From Sideroxydans sp. (lineage in GTDB: Bacteria > Pseudomonadota > Gammaproteobacteria > Burkholderiales > Gallionellaceae): a stretch of DNA of 64,000 nt. The stretch is taken from assembly GCA_028707175.1 (NCBI GenBank), contig JAQTUV010000001.1, forward strand, positions 434,001 through 498,000. Direction: 5' to 3'. Each line of letters begins with the position of its first letter. Within the stretch, counting starts at the first letter, position 1. A program made the translations under genes and the position numbers. Below are positions 22,214 to 62,711 of the stretch, piece by piece. The notes beneath the pieces were generated by a model that had not been told where the DNA came from, did no database searches, and saw only the letters and a program-made list of their open reading frames with translations.

Positions 22214-22294
22214 AGTAGGCGCAGCCGTATCGAACCATCTGGCGCGGAACGCGACGGTGCACCTTCGGCATCCCTCGATACGGCTGCGCCTACT
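22214..22294. repeat. 20-bp perfect inverted repeat
   Basis: AGTAGGCGCAGCCGTATCGA (22214-22233) is exactly complementary to 22275-22294, giving a long cruciform-capable stem with a 41-nt loop. It is immediately followed by the dispersed repeat at 22294-22360 and preceded by CGTTCGTGGTG, the edge of another repeat family. Confidence 0.8.
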
Positions 22295-36777: not shown

Positions 36778-37150
36778 GATTCACCTCCTAAATTCAAATT
36801 CGTTATAGAGCAGAAGTGACGCGAGTTTGCGGGTGGTGTGAGCTGAGGATTAACGGAACCGTGAACATCTGGCTACCGGAAATCCCGCTGTCATAGTGCA
36901 TTTACCACCTTAGACCGGAAACTTTGCGTCCCTACTTTTCAATAGGTTTGCTCTTGGTTACTGCGGGAATGATTCTGCGCCTGACATTCCTATCACAGCA
37001 AGGAATTCATCTCGATTTAACGCTCCGTCTGTCTGAATGGGAAGGGGACGAGCGGTAACGCTGATGAGAAATTAATTAATGAACCATTAACTAGGTGATT
37101 GAAAAATAGCGAAAAACAAGCCGAATAAAACACAGCCGAATGGCGAGGAA
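36778..37150. other. intergenic holding a riboswitch
   Basis: About 370 bp. It contains the leftward c-di-GMP riboswitch annotated separately. The rest is AT-rich with no gene; the segment 37060-37125 (TTAATTAATGAACCATTAAC) may include the promoter for the cyclase transcript. Confidence 0.5.
36850..36960 (-). promoter_or_regulatory. c-di-GMP-I (GEMM) riboswitch
   Basis: Read on the minus strand, the core is GCAAACC, a P2 stem CCTA/TAGG closed by a GAAA-type loop, then GGGACGCAAAG (36921-36931) and CCGGTCTAA, the invariant string of the GEMM-I aptamer. The P3 side continues to TTCCGGTAGCC near 36870-36880. It lies about 70-180 nt before the adenylate cyclase start, in the same direction. Whether it controls transcription or translation is not visible; no clear T-run follows. 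The ends are approximate. Confidence 0.9.
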
Positions 37151-38320
37151 CTACTTGGCTTTCACCGCCCGCGCGCGTAGCTGCCCACACGCCCCTTCCA
37201 CCTCTTGCCCTGCGGAATCACGCACGCGGGAATAGATGCCTTGCTGATTGAGTGCGTACATCATCGCCGCCGTGCGCTCGGCAGAAGGGCGGCGATAGGG
37301 CAGGCCATCCACCGCATTGAAAGGGATGAAATTCATCAGCGCGTATTTGCCTTTGAGCAATTGAGCGATGCGCGCCACCTCGGCATCGCTATCGTTTACA
37401 CCCTCGATCAACGTCCATTGATATTGCGTGGGATACCCCGTGGCCCGCGCATACACCTCGGCGCGTTCCACCAATTCTTCCACGGCAATGTTCGGTGCGT
37501 GCGGCAAAAGTTTCGCGCGTAATGTCGCATCCGTGCTGTGTAGTGAAAGGGCGAGGGCGGGACGTACAGTTTTATGTACTACAGCGCTTGAGTTCCTTCC
37601 CCCTTGCAGGGGGAAGGTTAGGATGGGGGTAGAAATTTTCGCATCACGCAAAGTTTCTACCCCCACCTCAGTCCTCCCCCTGCATGGGGGAGGAAGCGGG
37701 AGAGAGTTGCATCTCTCCATCAACCTATCAAACACCCGCACATCCCCCACCGTAGAAAGCACTAACTCCTTATGCCCGATACCGCCCAGCGTACCCAGCA
37801 CATCGATGGCTTCCAGTACGTTGTCCAGATTGTGCGCGGGCTCACCCATGCCCATGAATACCACCTTGCTTACCGCACGGCGTTTGCGCGCCAGCACCAC
37901 CTGCGCCACGATCTCGGCACTGCCTAGCTGGCGGATCAACCCATCGCGCCCACTCATGCAGAACACACAGCCCACCGCACACCCCACTTGTGTCGAGATG
38001 CAAAGGCCGCCGCGCGGCAGCAACACACTCTCAACCATCTGGCCGTCATGCAACTTGACGAGCAGGCGTGCTACCTCTTCATCAACGGGGTATTCACCCT
38101 GCAAACTTGCCAACCCATGTAACTCTGCCTCGATGGCAGGCAACGCATGACGCATGGCAGCGGGAAAGAACGATTCAGCAGGGCTGCCCTTCACGTCGTA
38201 CGAGCGCACCTGACTCCACCCCCGCAGCAGGCGGTCTTCGTGGCAGGGCTTAGCGCCAAGGTCTTGCAGACGTTGACGAAGTTGGGTGATGCGTAGCGAT
38301 GGGGGAGCGGCGGGAATCAA
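37151..38320 (-). CDS. RlmN-family radical-SAM methyltransferase with inserted repeat
   Basis: 389 residues. RlmN/Cfr enzymes methylate adenosine 2503 of 23S rRNA (and some tRNAs). The [4Fe-4S] motif is C114, C118, C121 (QVGCAVGCVFC), the SAM region is VVFMGMGEPAHN, and the C-terminal catalytic Cys is in EVEGACGQL. Residues about 205-248 (starting CNSLPLPPPCRGR) do not belong to the family: they are the in-frame translation of a REPIN-like repeat at 37593-37696. Without them LMER joins VRPALALSLHS as expected. Activity with the insertion is uncertain. Confidence 0.85.
   Translation of the reverse strand: MIPAAPPSLRITQLRQRLQDLGAKPCHEDRLLRGWSQVRSYDVKGSPAESFFPAAMRHALPAIEAELHGLASLQGEYPVDEEVARLLVKLHDGQMVESVLLPRGGLCISTQVGCAVGCVFCMSGRDGLIRQLGSAEIVAQVVLARKRRAVSKVVFMGMGEPAHNLDNVLEAIDVLGTLGGIGHKELVLSTVGDVRVFDRLMERCNSLPLPPPCRGRTEVGVETLRDAKISTPILTFPLQGGRNSSAVVHKTVRPALALSLHSTDATLRAKLLPHAPNIAVEELVERAEVYARATGYPTQYQWTLIEGVNDSDAEVARIAQLLKGKYALMNFIPFNAVDGLPYRRPSAERTAAMMYALNQQGIYSRVRDSAGQEVEGACGQLRARAVKAK
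37593..37696. repeat. REPIN-like repeat inside the rlmN-like gene
   Basis: Two opposed palindromes, TTCCTTCCCCCTTGCAGGG.. at the left and ..CCCCTGCATGGGGGAGG at the right, joined by a spacer with GGATGGGGGTAGAAA and TTTCTACCCCC. The same unit occurs at 38419-38522 and in the 39.5-kb array. Confidence 0.85.
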
Positions 38321-39370: not shown

Positions 39371-39901
39371 GAGCGTGTGGTGTTGGGGCTTTAGCCCCGT
39401 ACAGCCACGGCCTACCCCTTGCGGGTATCAGCCTGACAGCACAGCGTCGGGTTGAAACCCGACCTACAACAACGTTCCCTCCCCCATGCAGGGGGAGGGT
39501 TAGGGTGGGGGTAGAAGCGTGGTGGGGCCACAACTCTTCCCCCATCCGTGCATGCGTTGTTGGTGCTTTAGCCCCGTACAGCCACGGCCTACTCCTTGCG
39601 GGTATCAGCCTGACAGCACAGCGTCGGGTTGAAACCCGACCTACAACAACATTCCCTCCCCCATGCAGGGGGAGGGTTAGGGTGGGGGTAGAAGCGTGGT
39701 GGGGCCACAACTCTTCCCCCATCCGTGCGTGTGGTGTTGGGGCTTTAGCCCCGTACAGCCACGGCCTACCCCTTGCGGGTATCAGCCTGACAGCACAGCG
39801 TCGGGCTAAAGCCCGACCTACAACAACGTTCCCTCCCCCATGCAGGGGGAGGGTTAGGGTGGGGGTAGAAGCGTGGTGGGGCCGCAACTCTTCCCCCATC
39901 A
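39371..39901. repeat. three tandem copies of a 177-bp composite repeat
   Basis: Copies start at 39371, 39548 and 39725 (period exactly 177), with a truncated fourth from 39902. Each consists of a 57-bp unit (GAGCGTGTGGTGTTGGGG start, CCCCTTGCGGGTA end), a REP (CGTCGGGTTGAAACCCGACC), and a REPIN-half (CCCATGCAGGGGGAGGGTT). Because 177 is divisible by 3 both strands show long open frames, which are repeat artefacts. Confidence 0.92.
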
Positions 39902-39933
39902 GTGCATGTGTTTTTGGTGCTTAATCAGGCCAA

Positions 39934-43546: not shown

Positions 43547-43618
43547 TGTAGGTCAGGCTTCAGCCTGACAGCTCAGCATAGTAGGGAGCAATAAGTCTGC
43601 CTGAGCTTGTCGAAGGGC
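43547..43618. repeat. isolated REP copies
   Basis: GTAGGTCAGGCTTCAGCCTGAC (43547-43568) is the uninterrupted form of the REP that at 39361-39440 carries the 57-bp insert. TGAGCTTGTCGAAGG near 43602 belongs to another common repeat. Between the pseudogene and the helicase gene. Confidence 0.7.
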
Positions 43619-50216: not shown

Positions 50217-50538
50217 CACCCCCACCCCCATCCCCAACCAAGCATCCGAAGTCAGCGGCCCCTTCAGCGTCGGTAGTGCCTCTTCTAACCAAGCCAGCGC
50301 CAGCTTTTCCTTCCCACGCCACAATGCTTCGCCTGTGTTTTCGGAGTGTGGTTCGACAGGCTGTGCGTGTGCTGTCGGGGCGGATGCCCCATACAGCCAC
50401 GGCCTACCCCTTGCGGGTGCACCACGAACGGATGTTTGATCACGAGCGGACATGATGGATTTTTTCATCATCTGTATCGGTGCGCAGCCCTTGACCATGC
50501 TGTTCCAGAATTCGGCGGCGCTGCTGATGGGGAAAGGT
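50217..50538 (-). pseudogene. duplicated 3' fragment of the UbiE-like methyltransferase gene
   Basis: Matches the last about 90 codons of the gene at 52074-52949 (AEFWNSMVKGCAPIQMMKKS versus AEFWDNMVKGSAPIQMMKKS; ALAWLEEALPTLKGPLTSDA versus ALAWLEETLPTLKGPLTSDA). It lacks the catalytic domain. It carries a 57-bp repeat insert (50363-50419) that the intact gene lacks. Together the two copies flank the DUF1566 lipoprotein gene. Confidence 0.88.
50363..50419 (+). repeat. 57-bp nested repeat inside the fragment
   Basis: GTGCGTGTGCTGTCGGGGCG at the start and CCTACCCCTTGCGGGTG at the end. The uninterrupted sequence is at 52205-52231 (GACAGGCTCACCACGAACGG), which fixes the insert at exactly 57 bp. 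Confidence 0.9.
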
Positions 50539-52073: not shown

Positions 52074-52949
52074 TCATTTCACCCCCACCCCCAACCAAGC
52101 ATCCGAAGTTAGCGGCCCCTTCAGCGTAGGCAATGTCTCTTCCAGCCATGCCAGCGCCAGCTTTTCTTTCTCGCGCCATAGTTCTTCGCCTATGTTTTCG
52201 GAGTGTGGTTCGACAGGCTCACCACGAACGGATGTTTGATTACGAACGGACATGATTGATTTCTTCATCATCTGTATCGGCGCGCTGCCTTTGACCATGT
52301 TGTCCCAGAATTCGGCGGTGCTGCCGACGGGGAAGGCTTTGGTGACGCTGCGTATCTCGACGTTGCGGAACCCGGCTTCTTCCATCTCTTGTTTGAAGCG
52401 TTCGGGGTTTTCTAGCGTGGTGACGGAGCGTTGCGGTTGCGGCAGGTCGGGCTTGATGGCGCGCAGTGCGCCGAACATGGTTTGCATGGCGGGCGATTGG
52501 TCCACGGGCGCCCAACTGGTGAGGGCGATGCTGCCGCCCGGTTTGAGCGTGCGGTGGATTTCGGCGAAGCCTTTCTTGCGGTCGGGGAAGAACATGAGGC
52601 CGAACAGGGAGAAGGCGGCATCGAAGGTGGCGTCGGCATAGGGCAGGGTTTGCGCGTCGCCGCAGTGCAGGGCGATGTTGCGGTGTCCGGCTTGTTCGAT
52701 CTTGTTGCGGAAGATGGCGAGCATGGCTTCGGAGAAGTCGATGCCGTGAATTTGTTCGGCATGTTGCGCGAGCCGCAGCGCGAGTGTGCCGGGGCCGCAG
52801 GCGACGTCGAGCACGGTGGCGTTGGGTTTGAGTTTGCTAGCGGCGATGGCTTCGTCGGCGAATTGCTCGAAGATGAGCATGGTGGTCTCGGCGTAGCCAT
52901 CGGCGACGAGGTTCCACGGTTCACTGGCGGAGAGTGGGTTTGTGCTCAT
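52074..52949 (-). CDS. class I SAM methyltransferase, UbiE-like
   Basis: 291 residues. Motif I is VLDVACGPGTLALRLAQ, followed by IHGIDFSEAML, DAQTLPYADATFDAAFSLFG and RTLKPGGSIALTSW: a Rossmann SAM-dependent methyltransferase of the UbiE/ubiquinone type. Substrate unknown. Near residue 240 the segment NQTSVRGEPVEPHSENIG is the in-frame translation of a common palindromic repeat (TTCGACAGGCTCACCACGAA), absorbed into the protein. ATG 52949 begins the homologous part; upstream is a 57-bp repeat. Confidence 0.85.
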   Translation of the reverse strand: MSTNPLSASEPWNLVADGYAETTMLIFEQFADEAIAASKLKPNATVLDVACGPGTLALRLAQHAEQIHGIDFSEAMLAIFRNKIEQAGHRNIALHCGDAQTLPYADATFDAAFSLFGLMFFPDRKKGFAEIHRTLKPGGSIALTSWAPVDQSPAMQTMFGALRAIKPDLPQPQRSVTTLENPERFKQEMEEAGFRNVEIRSVTKAFPVGSTAEFWDNMVKGSAPIQMMKKSIMSVRNQTSVRGEPVEPHSENIGEELWREKEKLALAWLEETLPTLKGPLTSDAWLGVGVK

Positions 52950-52966: not shown

Positions 52967-53023
52967 GAGCGTGTGTTGTTGGGGCTTTGGCCCCGTACAA
53001 CCACGGCCTACCCCTTGCGGGTG
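52967..53023 (+). repeat. 57-bp nested repeat
   Basis: Starts GAGCGTGTGTTGTTGGGG and ends CCTACCCCTTGCGGGTG, lying between CTACCCCCACCC and TAACCCTCCCCCTGC, i.e. inside a REPIN at the same point as the copy at 62494-62550. Confidence 0.9.
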
Positions 53024-53422: not shown

Positions 53423-53479
53423 TACCCGCAAGGAGTAGGCCGTGGCTGTAAGGGGCTGAAGCCCCAACAGCACACGCTC
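53423..53479 (-). repeat. 57-bp nested repeat inside the MITE
   Basis: Inverse orientation: begins TACCCGCAAGGAGTAGGCCG and ends CAACAGCACACGCTC. The left flank CGTTCGTGGTG is the same repeat edge as at 50420-50430. Confidence 0.88.
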
Positions 53480-53524: not shown

Positions 53525-53590
53525 TGATGGAACTACTAGCCAATCCACTAAGCCAGCAAGCTGGCAAGTGGCTGGTTATCGGGACGAACG
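53525..53590. repeat. dispersed 66-bp repeat, copy 2 of 3
   Basis: Nearly identical to 22294-22360, including GCCAGCAAGCTGGC and the final GGGACGAACG. Confidence 0.85.
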
Positions 53591-55139: not shown

Positions 55140-58100
55140 TTAGTGGCCGCCATCATAGAAACATACCCGATCACGCCCTGTTTCTTTGGCTTGATACATG
55201 GCTTGGTCTGCCCGCTTGAGTAGGTCTTCTGCGGATACTTCATGGTTCACAGCCACCACTGTGCCGATGCTGGATGTGCAGTGGTATTCGACTGTGATCG
55301 AGGGTTTACCTTCTTGTTGGATTTCTAGGCGGTAGGGGCGGGCGAGCGAGGCGCGAATCTTTTCCGCAACGATTCTGGCTTGTGCAATCGCGTTTGCACT
55401 TTCGGTATCCAAGTCGCTAAGGAGCACGACGAATTCATCGCCCCCAAATCGGGAAACGGTATCGGCATCGCGCACGCAGTTGGCAATGCGGTGTGCCACT
55501 TCGATCAGCAGCAGGTCTCCGACATCGTGCCCGTATTTGTCATTGAGTGGTTTGAAGTTGTCTAGGTCAACGAACATCAGGGCGACATATCGACGGCTGC
55601 GTTTGCTGGCAGACATGGTGTGATTCAGTCGGTCGAGCAGTAGGCGGCGATTGGGTAGGTCGGTGAGGGTGTCGTGGTAGGCGAGTTGTAGAACTTCTTC
55701 TTCTTTTTTTAGCTGGGTGATGTCGCGTCCGATAGCGATGGCGCCGATGATTTCTCCGCTTTCATTGCGTTCGGGAATGACGCGGATGAGATGAACTGAG
55801 GTTTCACCGTCAGGCGTTAAAGCCACTTTTTCAATTTCTCCACTTTGGCCTCTGGCAAGTACGGTATCTAGTAGATTTGCATAGTCTTCGTATTCTCCAT
55901 TTGGGTGGAGTTCACGAATGGTCGTGCCGATCATCTTGGCGGCGACATATCCCAGCGTGCGTTCAAGTTTTGGGTTGACGTAGATCGTTCTAGCTTGTCT
56001 GTCATATCGGACGACATTGTCCGGCATGTTTTCGGCCAAAGAGCGAAACTTTTCTTCGCTCGCACTCATGTCTTGATACATCAGCAAGTTGGTCAGTCCG
56101 TCTTGCAGGCGCAGGCCGATCTCATGAAGCAGGCGTACTTCGGCGGGTGTCCAAACTCGGGCGTGGGAGCATTGATGGATGCCGAATAGCCATGCTGTAC
56201 CAAGCTTGGGATGCAAGGCCATGTTCATTTTTGATTGGATGCTGAATTGTTTCGCCGCACTGGCGGGGAGTGGATATTCAGCGGCTGGCCCAAATTTCAC
56301 TGGGGAATCGCTACTTAGGGTGATACGCATCACCTCGGCTACATCCTGCATCATTGGCACGGTTAATCCCAAAGTCAGTGCGCCAGGATATTCGGGTTTG
56401 GTGCGCTCCATTGGCACGCTCCACTCGGTGGCATTCGGATCGCACGGGGTAATGAGGTACACGCGGTCACAGTTAAAAATCGACAGTACGACATCGAGCA
56501 CGTTGCGCATCATTTCATTGAGATTGTTCGTACCCTGCATGGCGCGATTGATTCGGTCCATGTTTTCTAGATGGGTGAGATGAGTTTTAAGCTCCGTCTC
56601 CATCTGTTTGCGTTCGGTGATGTCGCGACCAATAGCGAGTGCGCCGATGATTTCGCCGCGCTCATCATGTTCGGGCACCATGCGTACGAGTGCAGTCCAA
56701 TGTTGACCGTTTGGGAAGACCGAGGTTTTTTCTATTTCTCCCGCTTTGCCGTGGGTAAGCACGTTATCCAATACCTTGGCGTAATCTTCAAACGATCCAT
56801 CAGCGTGATGTTCACGTGGGGTTGTGCCGCCGGCTACCTCTGCCACTTCTCCTACATAGCGTTTGAGTGCATGGTTAGCGAAAAGCACTTCGGCTTTGCG
56901 GTTGTAGCGGACAACCACGTCGGGCAAATTTTCGGCCAGTGAGCGGAATTGTTGTTCGCTGGCAATGAGATTTCGATTGATCAGCAGACTGGTGAGGCCG
57001 TCTTGTAGGTGTTCGCCGATTTTCTGGAATAGTCGTTCATCGGCGGCAGTCCACGCACGAGTGTAAGCGCAACGGTGCAGCCCGAATCGCCAAGGTTTAC
57101 CTAGCTTGGAATGTAGCAGCATGATCATCAGAGACTTGACTGCGTATTGTTCTGATAAGCAGTGTGGCAAGTGATGCTCAGCCCCTAAACCAAATTGCAC
57201 AGGCCCCGTTGAATCTCGTGTGATACGCAACAGTGCTGCCATTTCTTCATCTAACGGTATCGCCAAACCCAGCGTGCTTGCACCGGGATACTCCGGTCTT
57301 GTGCGCTCTATCGGGGCGATGGATTCTTCATCATCGGGTTCGCGGGGGTGAGCAAGAAAGGCACGATCACAATCGAAGATCGAGAGTACGACATCCAATA
57401 CGTCGTGCATCATCTGTTCAAGATTGTTGGCGCCCTGCATGGCGCGATTCACTCTGTCCATGCTTTGAAAGTGGCGCAGATGTTCTTGCTGATCAGCCTC
57501 TAACTGTTTGCGTACCGTGATGTCGAGCATGATGCCGCGCCAGAGGGTGCCGCCGTCAGTATCACGTTCTGGCATGGAGTGCATTTCGAGCCAGCGGATG
57601 GGAAGCCCCGGCCGGCAAATGCGCGATTCAACATGGAGTGGGGCCAGCGTTCGAGCTGTCTCGGCGATAGCGGCTTCGATGTGGCCGCGATCATCAGGGT
57701 GCGCCAGCAGGTGAATGGGCATCATGTCATGCTGAACATCCGCTGGTTTGAGGCCGTAAAATTCTTCGATGCCCGCACTGATGAAAGGAAAGCTGCCATG
57801 TCCGTCAGGGGATAGCCGAAAGACATAGGCCATGCCGGGTAGGTTGTCGACGAACTGCCGGAGATTGCTTTCAGCTTCGTGCAAAGCGGTGATGCTGCGC
57901 CCATAGGCGATGGTGCCGATGAGTTGTCCTGTCTCATTCCGTTCGGGGACGACGTCGACTTGCTTGAGATATGTCACACCATTGGCATCTGCCGCTGGAA
58001 ATTCCGCATGCGTTTGATCACCTGTCTGCAAGGCTTGGTTGGCGGCCTTTTCAATCGCTGCAAAGCGGCCATCTGGCCACGCTTCGCTGGGCAATTTGCC

Positions 58101-58253
58101 AAGCACCTCGGCTGCATTTATGCCTAAAAATCCAAGTAGCCCCGGGGTCATGTAGCTGATGCGCCCCTTGAGGTCGTAACGAATCACGCAATCGGGCGAG
58201 CTTTCTAGCATGCGGCGGTAGTTGAGTTCTTCAGCGTGTGCTTGCGTAGGCAT
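55140..58253 (-). CDS. multi-PAS/GAF diguanylate cyclase
   Basis: 1037 residues, no membrane segment. In order: PAS (1-125), PAS (about 130-260), GAF-like (275-430), PAS (435-560), GAF-like (575-725), PAS (735-855), GGDEF (865-1037). The active site is RFGGDEF and the inhibitory RxxD site is present as RDAD five residues earlier, so c-di-GMP is made with product feedback. Two PAS-GAF blocks are an internal duplication: MDRVNRAMQGANNLEQMM and MDRINRAMQGTNNLNEMM. No EAL domain. It ends before a 265-bp empty spacer. Confidence 0.92.
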   Translation of the reverse strand: MPTQAHAEELNYRRMLESSPDCVIRYDLKGRISYMTPGLLGFLGINAAEVLGKLPSEAWPDGRFAAIEKAANQALQTGDQTHAEFPAADANGVTYLKQVDVVPERNETGQLIGTIAYGRSITALHEAESNLRQFVDNLPGMAYVFRLSPDGHGSFPFISAGIEEFYGLKPADVQHDMMPIHLLAHPDDRGHIEAAIAETARTLAPLHVESRICRPGLPIRWLEMHSMPERDTDGGTLWRGIMLDITVRKQLEADQQEHLRHFQSMDRVNRAMQGANNLEQMMHDVLDVVLSIFDCDRAFLAHPREPDDEESIAPIERTRPEYPGASTLGLAIPLDEEMAALLRITRDSTGPVQFGLGAEHHLPHCLSEQYAVKSLMIMLLHSKLGKPWRFGLHRCAYTRAWTAADERLFQKIGEHLQDGLTSLLINRNLIASEQQFRSLAENLPDVVVRYNRKAEVLFANHALKRYVGEVAEVAGGTTPREHHADGSFEDYAKVLDNVLTHGKAGEIEKTSVFPNGQHWTALVRMVPEHDERGEIIGALAIGRDITERKQMETELKTHLTHLENMDRINRAMQGTNNLNEMMRNVLDVVLSIFNCDRVYLITPCDPNATEWSVPMERTKPEYPGALTLGLTVPMMQDVAEVMRITLSSDSPVKFGPAAEYPLPASAAKQFSIQSKMNMALHPKLGTAWLFGIHQCSHARVWTPAEVRLLHEIGLRLQDGLTNLLMYQDMSASEEKFRSLAENMPDNVVRYDRQARTIYVNPKLERTLGYVAAKMIGTTIRELHPNGEYEDYANLLDTVLARGQSGEIEKVALTPDGETSVHLIRVIPERNESGEIIGAIAIGRDITQLKKEEEVLQLAYHDTLTDLPNRRLLLDRLNHTMSASKRSRRYVALMFVDLDNFKPLNDKYGHDVGDLLLIEVAHRIANCVRDADTVSRFGGDEFVVLLSDLDTESANAIAQARIVAEKIRASLARPYRLEIQQEGKPSITVEYHCTSSIGTVVAVNHEVSAEDLLKRADQAMYQAKETGRDRVCFYDGGH

Positions 58254-62493: not shown

Positions 62494-62550
62494 CACCCGC
62501 AAGGAGTAGGCCGTGGTTGTATGGGGCTGAAGCCCCAACAACACACGCTC
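62494..62550 (-). repeat. 57-bp nested repeat inside a REPIN
   Basis: CACCCGCAAGGAGTAGGCCG to CAACAACACACGCTC, between GGGGAAGGTTA and GGATGGGGG. The same junction is intact (GAAGGTTAGGATGGGGG) at 37613-37629. Confidence 0.92.
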
Positions 62551-62657: not shown

Positions 62658-62711
62658 TGATGGAACTACTAGCCAATCGACTAAGCCAGCAAGCTGGCAA
62701 GTCGCTGGTTA
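62658..62711. repeat. dispersed 66-bp repeat, copy 3 of 3, truncated
   Basis: TGATGGAACTACTAGCCAAT start; ends at GCTGGTTA where the other copies continue with TCGGGACGAACG. Confidence 0.8.

Follow-up and report, generated by a model that had tools for sequence, protein, structure and literature searches.

A 57-nt double-hairpin sequence of Gallionellaceae as a candidate non-autonomous mobile DNA element

Background

Double-hairpin elements of mitochondria are short, GC-rich, hairpin-forming mobile units that lack an enzyme of their own. Mitochondrial GC clusters share these traits; RNA copying is suspected for them in PMC4478555, and a putative AG target duplication is given for those of yeast. 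Among bacterial sequences, GTAG and CGTC REPs, BIMEs and REPINs are small, dispersed and palindromic, lying mostly between genes and sometimes in frame within them (PMC3733652, PMC8266576). Some REP families lie inside other palindromes, and the CGTC REPs have no known transposase (PMC3733652); the spread of REP-like palindromes is called poorly understood in PMC8266576. Rickettsia palindromic elements are palindromic inserts found in frame inside ORFs (PMC3733652), and REP-targeting insertion sequences insert precisely into REP palindromes (PMC1525189).

A 57-bp sequence (57-mer) recurring in a 64-kb window, that is, the whole stretch of DNA analysed, was compared with these systems. It is probably a double-hairpin insert of bacteria that acts as a non-autonomous mobile DNA element; this reading of the comparative sequence is preferred because the length is near constant, filled and empty sites are seamless at both paralogous and orthologous positions, and the structure covaries. 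It differs from REPs in combining two unlike hairpins in a 57-nt unit with no terminal GTAG or CGTC (for the CGTC tag, none was seen by eye in the aligned copies), and from REPs accompanied by a RAYT in the strand that appears to be kept foldable, which is the opposite one, its many unrelated target classes and its position away from RAYT genes. A REPIN consists of two inverted copies of one REP, whereas the two hairpins here are different sequences. A MITE has terminal inverted repeats, a relation that the ends GWGCG and GGGTR do not show, and the compared sites carry no target duplication. The absence of a visible duplication also separates the 57-mer from the yeast GC clusters, with which it shares neither host nor sequence. 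REP-targeting insertion sequences encode a transposase, whereas the 57-mer encodes nothing. Strand-specific hairpins, directed insertion and lack of target duplication, all seen here in comparative sequence, recall non-autonomous IS200/IS605-like elements; the 57-mer differs in having no fixed 5' target, only C at -2 being common (91 of 123 junction classes), and in a source genome without a Y1 match. The likeness to Rickettsia palindromic elements proposed in the initial annotation held for in-frame insertion into genes. The main targets here, in contrast to those elements as described, are other repeats, and the length is nearly constant.

Among the papers listed in searches of the open literature, none describes this 57-nt unit. 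Nesting in palindromes and insertion into coding sequence are not new in themselves (PMC3733652). What appears to be new is the near-constant-length double hairpin, its insertion in a set direction into many target classes, the apparent folding of the opposite strand and the lack of a link to RAYT genes. With clean before-and-after sites, a near-constant length, a strand that is a candidate for folding and a consensus for the site, the questions of strand, target and enzyme become testable.

Results and Discussion

Copies and empty sites in the window

The seven copies reported initially were recovered at their positions, each exactly 57 bp long and 48-57/57 identical to one reference copy (Table 1). 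The empty sites quoted for them were also located at base resolution: GACAGGCTCACCACG at 52212, CAGGCTTCAGCC at 43554 and GGTTAGGATGG at 37616. Flanks of 12+12 nt were joined and sought elsewhere in the window with up to 4 mismatches. Exact matches were obtained for the joined flanks of the copies at 39371, 50363 and 52967 and a one-mismatch match for 62494, while the copies at 39548, 39725 and 53423 gave no match in the window at this limit. No target duplication was seen at the window copies having empty counterparts, as had been claimed. All seven copies are real, but those at 39548 and 39725 are array copies and not separate insertions, because they lie in a tandem array (177-bp unit, 3.1 copies, also holding the 39371 copy) with hybrid flanks. 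The statement that one frame lacks stops proved too narrow: four copies have four of their six frames open, and the other three have five.

Table 1: Copies of the 57-mer and their empty counterparts in the 64-kb window
Feature	Position	Strand	Remarks
Empty counterpart of the 62494 site	37609..37632	-	1 mismatch in 24
57-mer in loop of palindrome GTAGGTCAGGCT/TCAGCCTGACAG; array unit 1	39371..39427	+	Exact empty site at 43548-43571
57-mer, 177-bp array unit 2	39548..39604	+	Hybrid flanks
57-mer, 177-bp array unit 3	39725..39781	+	Hybrid flanks
Further truncated copy, array end	~39901..39925	+	By eye, ends approximate
Exact empty counterpart of the 39371 site	43548..43571	+	
57-mer in REP-like motif inside methyltransferase-like C-terminal coding fragment	50363..50419	+	Minus-strand frame stays open
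Exact empty counterpart of the 50363 site	52208..52231	+	In fuller paralogue
57-mer between CTACCCCCACCC and TAACCCTCCCCC	52967..53023	+	Exact empty counterparts at 39491, 39668 and 39845 of the 177-bp array (minus strand)
57-mer between ...AATACT and CACCACGAACGG	53423..53479	-	No empty counterpart in window; class recurs in other genomes
57-mer between ACCCCCATCC and TAACCTTCCCCC	62494..62550	-	

The insert at 50363 splits a segment by exactly 57 bp; the two parts share 89% and 88% identity with 52080-52340, where the fuller paralogue is a methyltransferase (P0003). The interrupted ORF (150 aa) matches only the C-terminal part of this paralogue and has no Pfam match of its own.

Fold and strand

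One strand of the 57-mer would form an imperfect hairpin (columns 4-39) followed by a short hairpin (43-57). The foldable strand is laid out as GWGCG, hairpin 1 and CGGCCTACCCCTTGCGGGTR, hairpin 2 being short and at the 3' end. In the ungapped 20-copy alignment 96.8% of the cells pair; double-changed cells numbered 6 against 1.7 in shuffled alignments, and the two pairs with double changes were matched by 185 of 500 shuffles. The larger alignment of 93 distinct rows showed 98.9% pairing, changes on both sides in 13 of 19 pairs and 110 double-changed cells against 24 shuffled. Since these rows were fitted to a covariance model, this alignment favours the structure. Judged from the alignments, the 57-mer is a covarying double hairpin.

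Among 148 distinct elements the foldable strand carried 151 G-T and 12 A-C cells. The G-T excess lies mostly in hairpin 2, hairpin 1 contributing 21 G-T against 8 A-C (hand sum). The direction of the element relative to genes was counted with mechanical ORF calls at 66 loci. The foldable strand was the coding strand at 19 and the opposite one at 15 of the 34 copies between co-directional ORFs; of the other loci, 10 had convergent and 3 divergent neighbouring ORFs, 18 fell within an ORF of 130 aa or more, and 1 lacked a flank. An mRNA element was rejected on this unbiased direction. As the fold is kept on one strand yet is random to transcription, the data suggest that the functional form would be single-stranded DNA rather than mRNA. 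Rfam at gathering score gave no family over the 57-mers, and a coding insert gave only a weak nadA match (E 0.53). The sole Rfam family in the window was a c-di-GMP-I riboswitch aptamer elsewhere, at 36875-36962 on the minus strand (73.9 bits).

Distribution

A search with one window protein, probably AprA, gave 34 relatives, of which 16 carry the names Gallionella, Sideroxydans, Ferrigenium or Gallionellaceae/Gallionellales and most others belong to further betaproteobacteria, so that the host is probably a member of the Gallionellaceae. A covariance model built from 20 copies was used for the family census. The source genome (2.89 Mb, 19 contigs) contains 22 full-length copies (E < 0.001), besides which two weaker matches were obtained. 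All 57 nt are the same in six of its copies, two of which also have flanks in common. Matches were obtained in 119 of 158 genomes of the host's family, which excludes chance. They occurred in 39 of 399 genomes drawn from the order, 10 of the 39 belonging to the host's family, and in 4 of 398 drawn from the phylum, one of them outside the order; the larger genome searches used stricter filters under which weak matches are lost. The search of the genome and its relatives proposed at the outset thus revealed a real dispersed family, for which lengths, insertion points and empty sites were tabulated. Plasmid and phage collections gave no match to one 57-mer query, and the exact 3' module was found in 14 putative viral contigs. 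One match (L056) falls in a disrupted aprA-like region. An autonomous parent element was sought at four loci with neighbouring copies and rejected; the ORFs between these copies look like ordinary host genes (translations by eye), and no carrier element was found among the four.

Lengths, junctions and target classes

The flanks were analysed for 184 copies with 179 distinct flank pairs, taken from 205 matches after leaving out 16 repeat views of copies already counted, one further locus (L133) and copies with less than 40 nt of flank (L081, L215 and one copy each in L238 and L239). The length was 57 nt in 153 of the 179 copies, 56 nt in 18 and 55 nt in 4, with one each of 54, 58, 59 and 69 nt. 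The 123 junction classes showed C or T at +1 in 104 and A at +2 in 77 besides the common C at -2, so that sites appear to tend to C-N/Y-A. A stem of at least 7/8 across the junction was found in 22% of the 179 copies, while mispaired flanks and positions 25 nt from the junction each gave 2%; about 78% of junctions lie outside a tight palindrome. The exact 16-nt joined junction was present elsewhere in the retrieved DNA for 59 of 179 copies, against 4-8 in five mispaired shuffles.

Eleven target classes were named, by patterns defined after seeing the data, and all 95 copies assigned to them had the same direction within their class; 84 of the 179 belong to no class. Few founding events per class could make this uniformity overstate independence. 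Variable length, or constant residence in one larger repeated unit, had been put forward as evidence against independent mobility. Neither was observed, given the predominance of exactly 57 nt, at least eleven target classes and one coding site without a visible repeat at its junction. The reported nesting within other repeats is likewise supported by these classes.

The observations would fit a mechanism in which the 57-mer enters sites close to the above consensus, the target being neither visibly duplicated nor shortened, and with a clear excess in palindrome centres and inside other short repeats. The folded GWGCG strand might be handled as single-stranded DNA by a trans-acting enzyme in the manner of HUH-type transposases, and hairpin loops may be hit because they expose single strand.

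Movement at orthologous coding sites

The nesting and the fixed direction may instead reflect common descent. On this alternative, which is unlikely though the strongest competitor, the outer REP-like palindromes are mobile, with the 57-mer as a long-loop version that each class acquired on one or a few occasions and that was then carried along. Junction, direction and often element variant do agree within a class, and the ACT/CACCACGAACGG class shares flanks of about 25 nt on each side among several genomes; composites of this type may also spread as whole units. Against it stand the number of target classes and the source genome itself, where identical 57-mers occur in outer hairpins of differing arms and the same arm variants also occur empty.

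The orthologous sites bear on this alternative most directly. For an ABC-ATPase gene (source genome G000:C8:332030-333034) 27 of 28 orthologous loci of the genus (among them L346-L351) could be aligned. Following the motif QIAEVLxLH, no insert was present in 20 of the 27, and 7 had differing in-frame inserts; the site is an insertion hot spot for different in-frame repeats. Two relatives, G127 and G137, carry only an outer inverted hairpin pair at this site (+30 and +45 nt relative to the empty form), whereas in the source genome the first hairpin of such a pair holds the 57-mer in its loop (+90 nt). A third relative, G129, has a 57-bp insert alone elsewhere in the gene, at a position empty in the source genome; its junction shows no visible repeat, and there is neither duplication nor loss. 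These sites argue against passive carriage within outer palindromes and support independent movement of the 57-mer, as first proposed from the window. The G129 gene copy also has an 82-nt frame-shifting deletion upstream and is probably not a working gene; its insert is therefore evidence of mobility but not of tolerance by a functional protein.

Compatibility with coding sequence, also suggested earlier, is borne out by two other reading frames that remain open after in-frame insertion, namely the ABC-ATPase gene of the source genome and coaE (dephospho-CoA kinase; L263) of G320. The latter contains two in-frame composites, each a 57-mer within a further hairpin element, and its product still scores 182.5 bits to CoaE. 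Nesting of palindromes within palindromes inside genes that remain open is a route by which bacterial proteins can acquire additional peptide segments.

Search for the mobilising enzyme

An association with a RAYT, the REP-associated transposase (TnpAREP), had been anticipated and was not found. The Y1 transposase family (PF01797) gave no match in the source genome, nor did a search with one RAYT protein, which was run without a positive control. The idea that the 57-mer belongs to the GTAG REPs and owes its movement to a RAYT since lost from the source genome is considered improbable. It would account for the GTAG on the reverse complement of 91 of 122 distinct 57-nt elements, located before an imperfect bulged palindrome, and it agrees with the correlation of copy number with Y1 count (rho 0.49; 34 genus genomes, kinship uncorrected). 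Cutting by TnpAREP at CT, and by one enzyme also at CA, is described in PMC8266576, and C is common at -2 here. The cut reported there falls between C and T, one base off the present junction. A GTAG REP has a terminal unpaired GTAG by one palindrome, whereas the GTAG here is internal, between two hairpins, and is replaced by GTAC, GCAG or others in 31 of 122. The strand with GTAG 5' of the hairpin would be the recognised one in such a REP; the G-T excess given above suggests the opposite strand here. Genome size also correlates with copy number about as well (rho 0.47; same genomes, kinship uncorrected).

GTAG REPs also flank RAYT genes. In loci sampled from the 122 genomes that have Y1, a full-length 57-mer was near one of 20 RAYT-type loci and a 30-nt partial match near another; these genes were defined by PF01797 matches, and two checked in NCBIfam score below the REP transposase cut-off. 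The 30 strongest Y1 loci had no full-length 57-mer nearby and one partial match at E 0.22. GGGGWSAS, the TIR or end motif of other RAYTs in PMC3733652, was instead present within 260 nt of 14 of the 20 RAYT-type loci (on both sides in 6), the expectation being about 0.08 per random window. No Y1 match was obtained in G142 (10 copies) and G147 (15 copies), both incomplete genomes.

Several REP-targeting insertion sequences belong to the IS110 family. That IS110-family recombinases moved or shaped the 57-mer is very improbable, even though IS110 count was the best correlate of copy number in the genus (rho 0.58; 34 genomes, kinship uncorrected) and REPs are targeted by insertion sequences (PMC1525189). 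The sole IS110 hit in the source genome is a 162-aa ORF of about half length, and G131 (22 copies), G142 and G155 had no hit. Only one of 20 IS110 loci had a high-scoring 57-mer nearby, in a cluster of other repeats, and a weak 25.4-bit match was near another. Copying through RNA by a reverse transcriptase is the least probable route of all. The structured unit and the suspicion of RNA copying for GC clusters would suit it, but RVT_1 had no match either in the source genome or in five further members of the genus with at least 10 copies, and RT count did not follow copy number (rho 0.01; 34 genomes, kinship uncorrected). None of Y1, IS110 and RT was present in every genome with at least 10 copies, some of these genomes being incomplete. 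For the non-autonomous element preferred here, the mover in the source genome may have been lost, may lie outside the searched families or may be a host enzyme.

Variants and related elements

The relation between element variant and site was analysed for 118 long-hairpin copies from 43 genomes. YT/CA sites were occupied by 18 of 19 C10 variants, 13 of 69 T10 variants and none of 21 C1 variants. The C10 variants at YT/CA sites lie in several different outer sequences, and their number exceeds the maximum of 17 (mean 12.6) reached in 5000 within-genome shuffles. It is conceivable, though doubtful, that the two-hairpin fold is a self-contained address label by which the element's own sequence chooses its site; if true, this would be a retargetable single-strand integration system with an enzyme outside the Y1, RT and IS110 families. 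Shared descent of composites could explain the link instead.

Pairing of a guide type between flank and arm was rejected: one of nine longest-shared-word comparisons (right flank with 5' arm) lay slightly above all 200 shuffles, at 3.05 against 2.89, whereas the match expected for the 3' arm was among the eight that stayed within the shuffled range. Many position pairs of element and flank had high mutual information, in a calculation uncorrected for the relatedness of copies.

A different hairpin 1 with the same ends and 3' hairpin was found by eye in about 9 of 19 extra module hits, some in the source genome, and in nine of the 14 putative viral-contig hits; five of the latter are 57 nt. Members of this modular superfamily include L019/L312 (G000:C15:195249), L313 (G000:C17:162244), L064, L150, L206, L235 and L291.

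A second dispersed element, TGATGRAACNACTAGCCA...GCTGGTTA, was observed in the window at 22294, 53525-53578 and 62658-62711, and also at L169, L186, L201 and L094. It has 17 distinct matches in the retrieved DNA and sits inside REP-like hairpins. At L094 a variant of the 57-mer lies inside this second element, giving nesting three deep. The window further contains three diverged 84-nt coding repeats, at 55707, 56607 and 57879, within a 1037-aa ORF at 55140-58253 on the minus strand.
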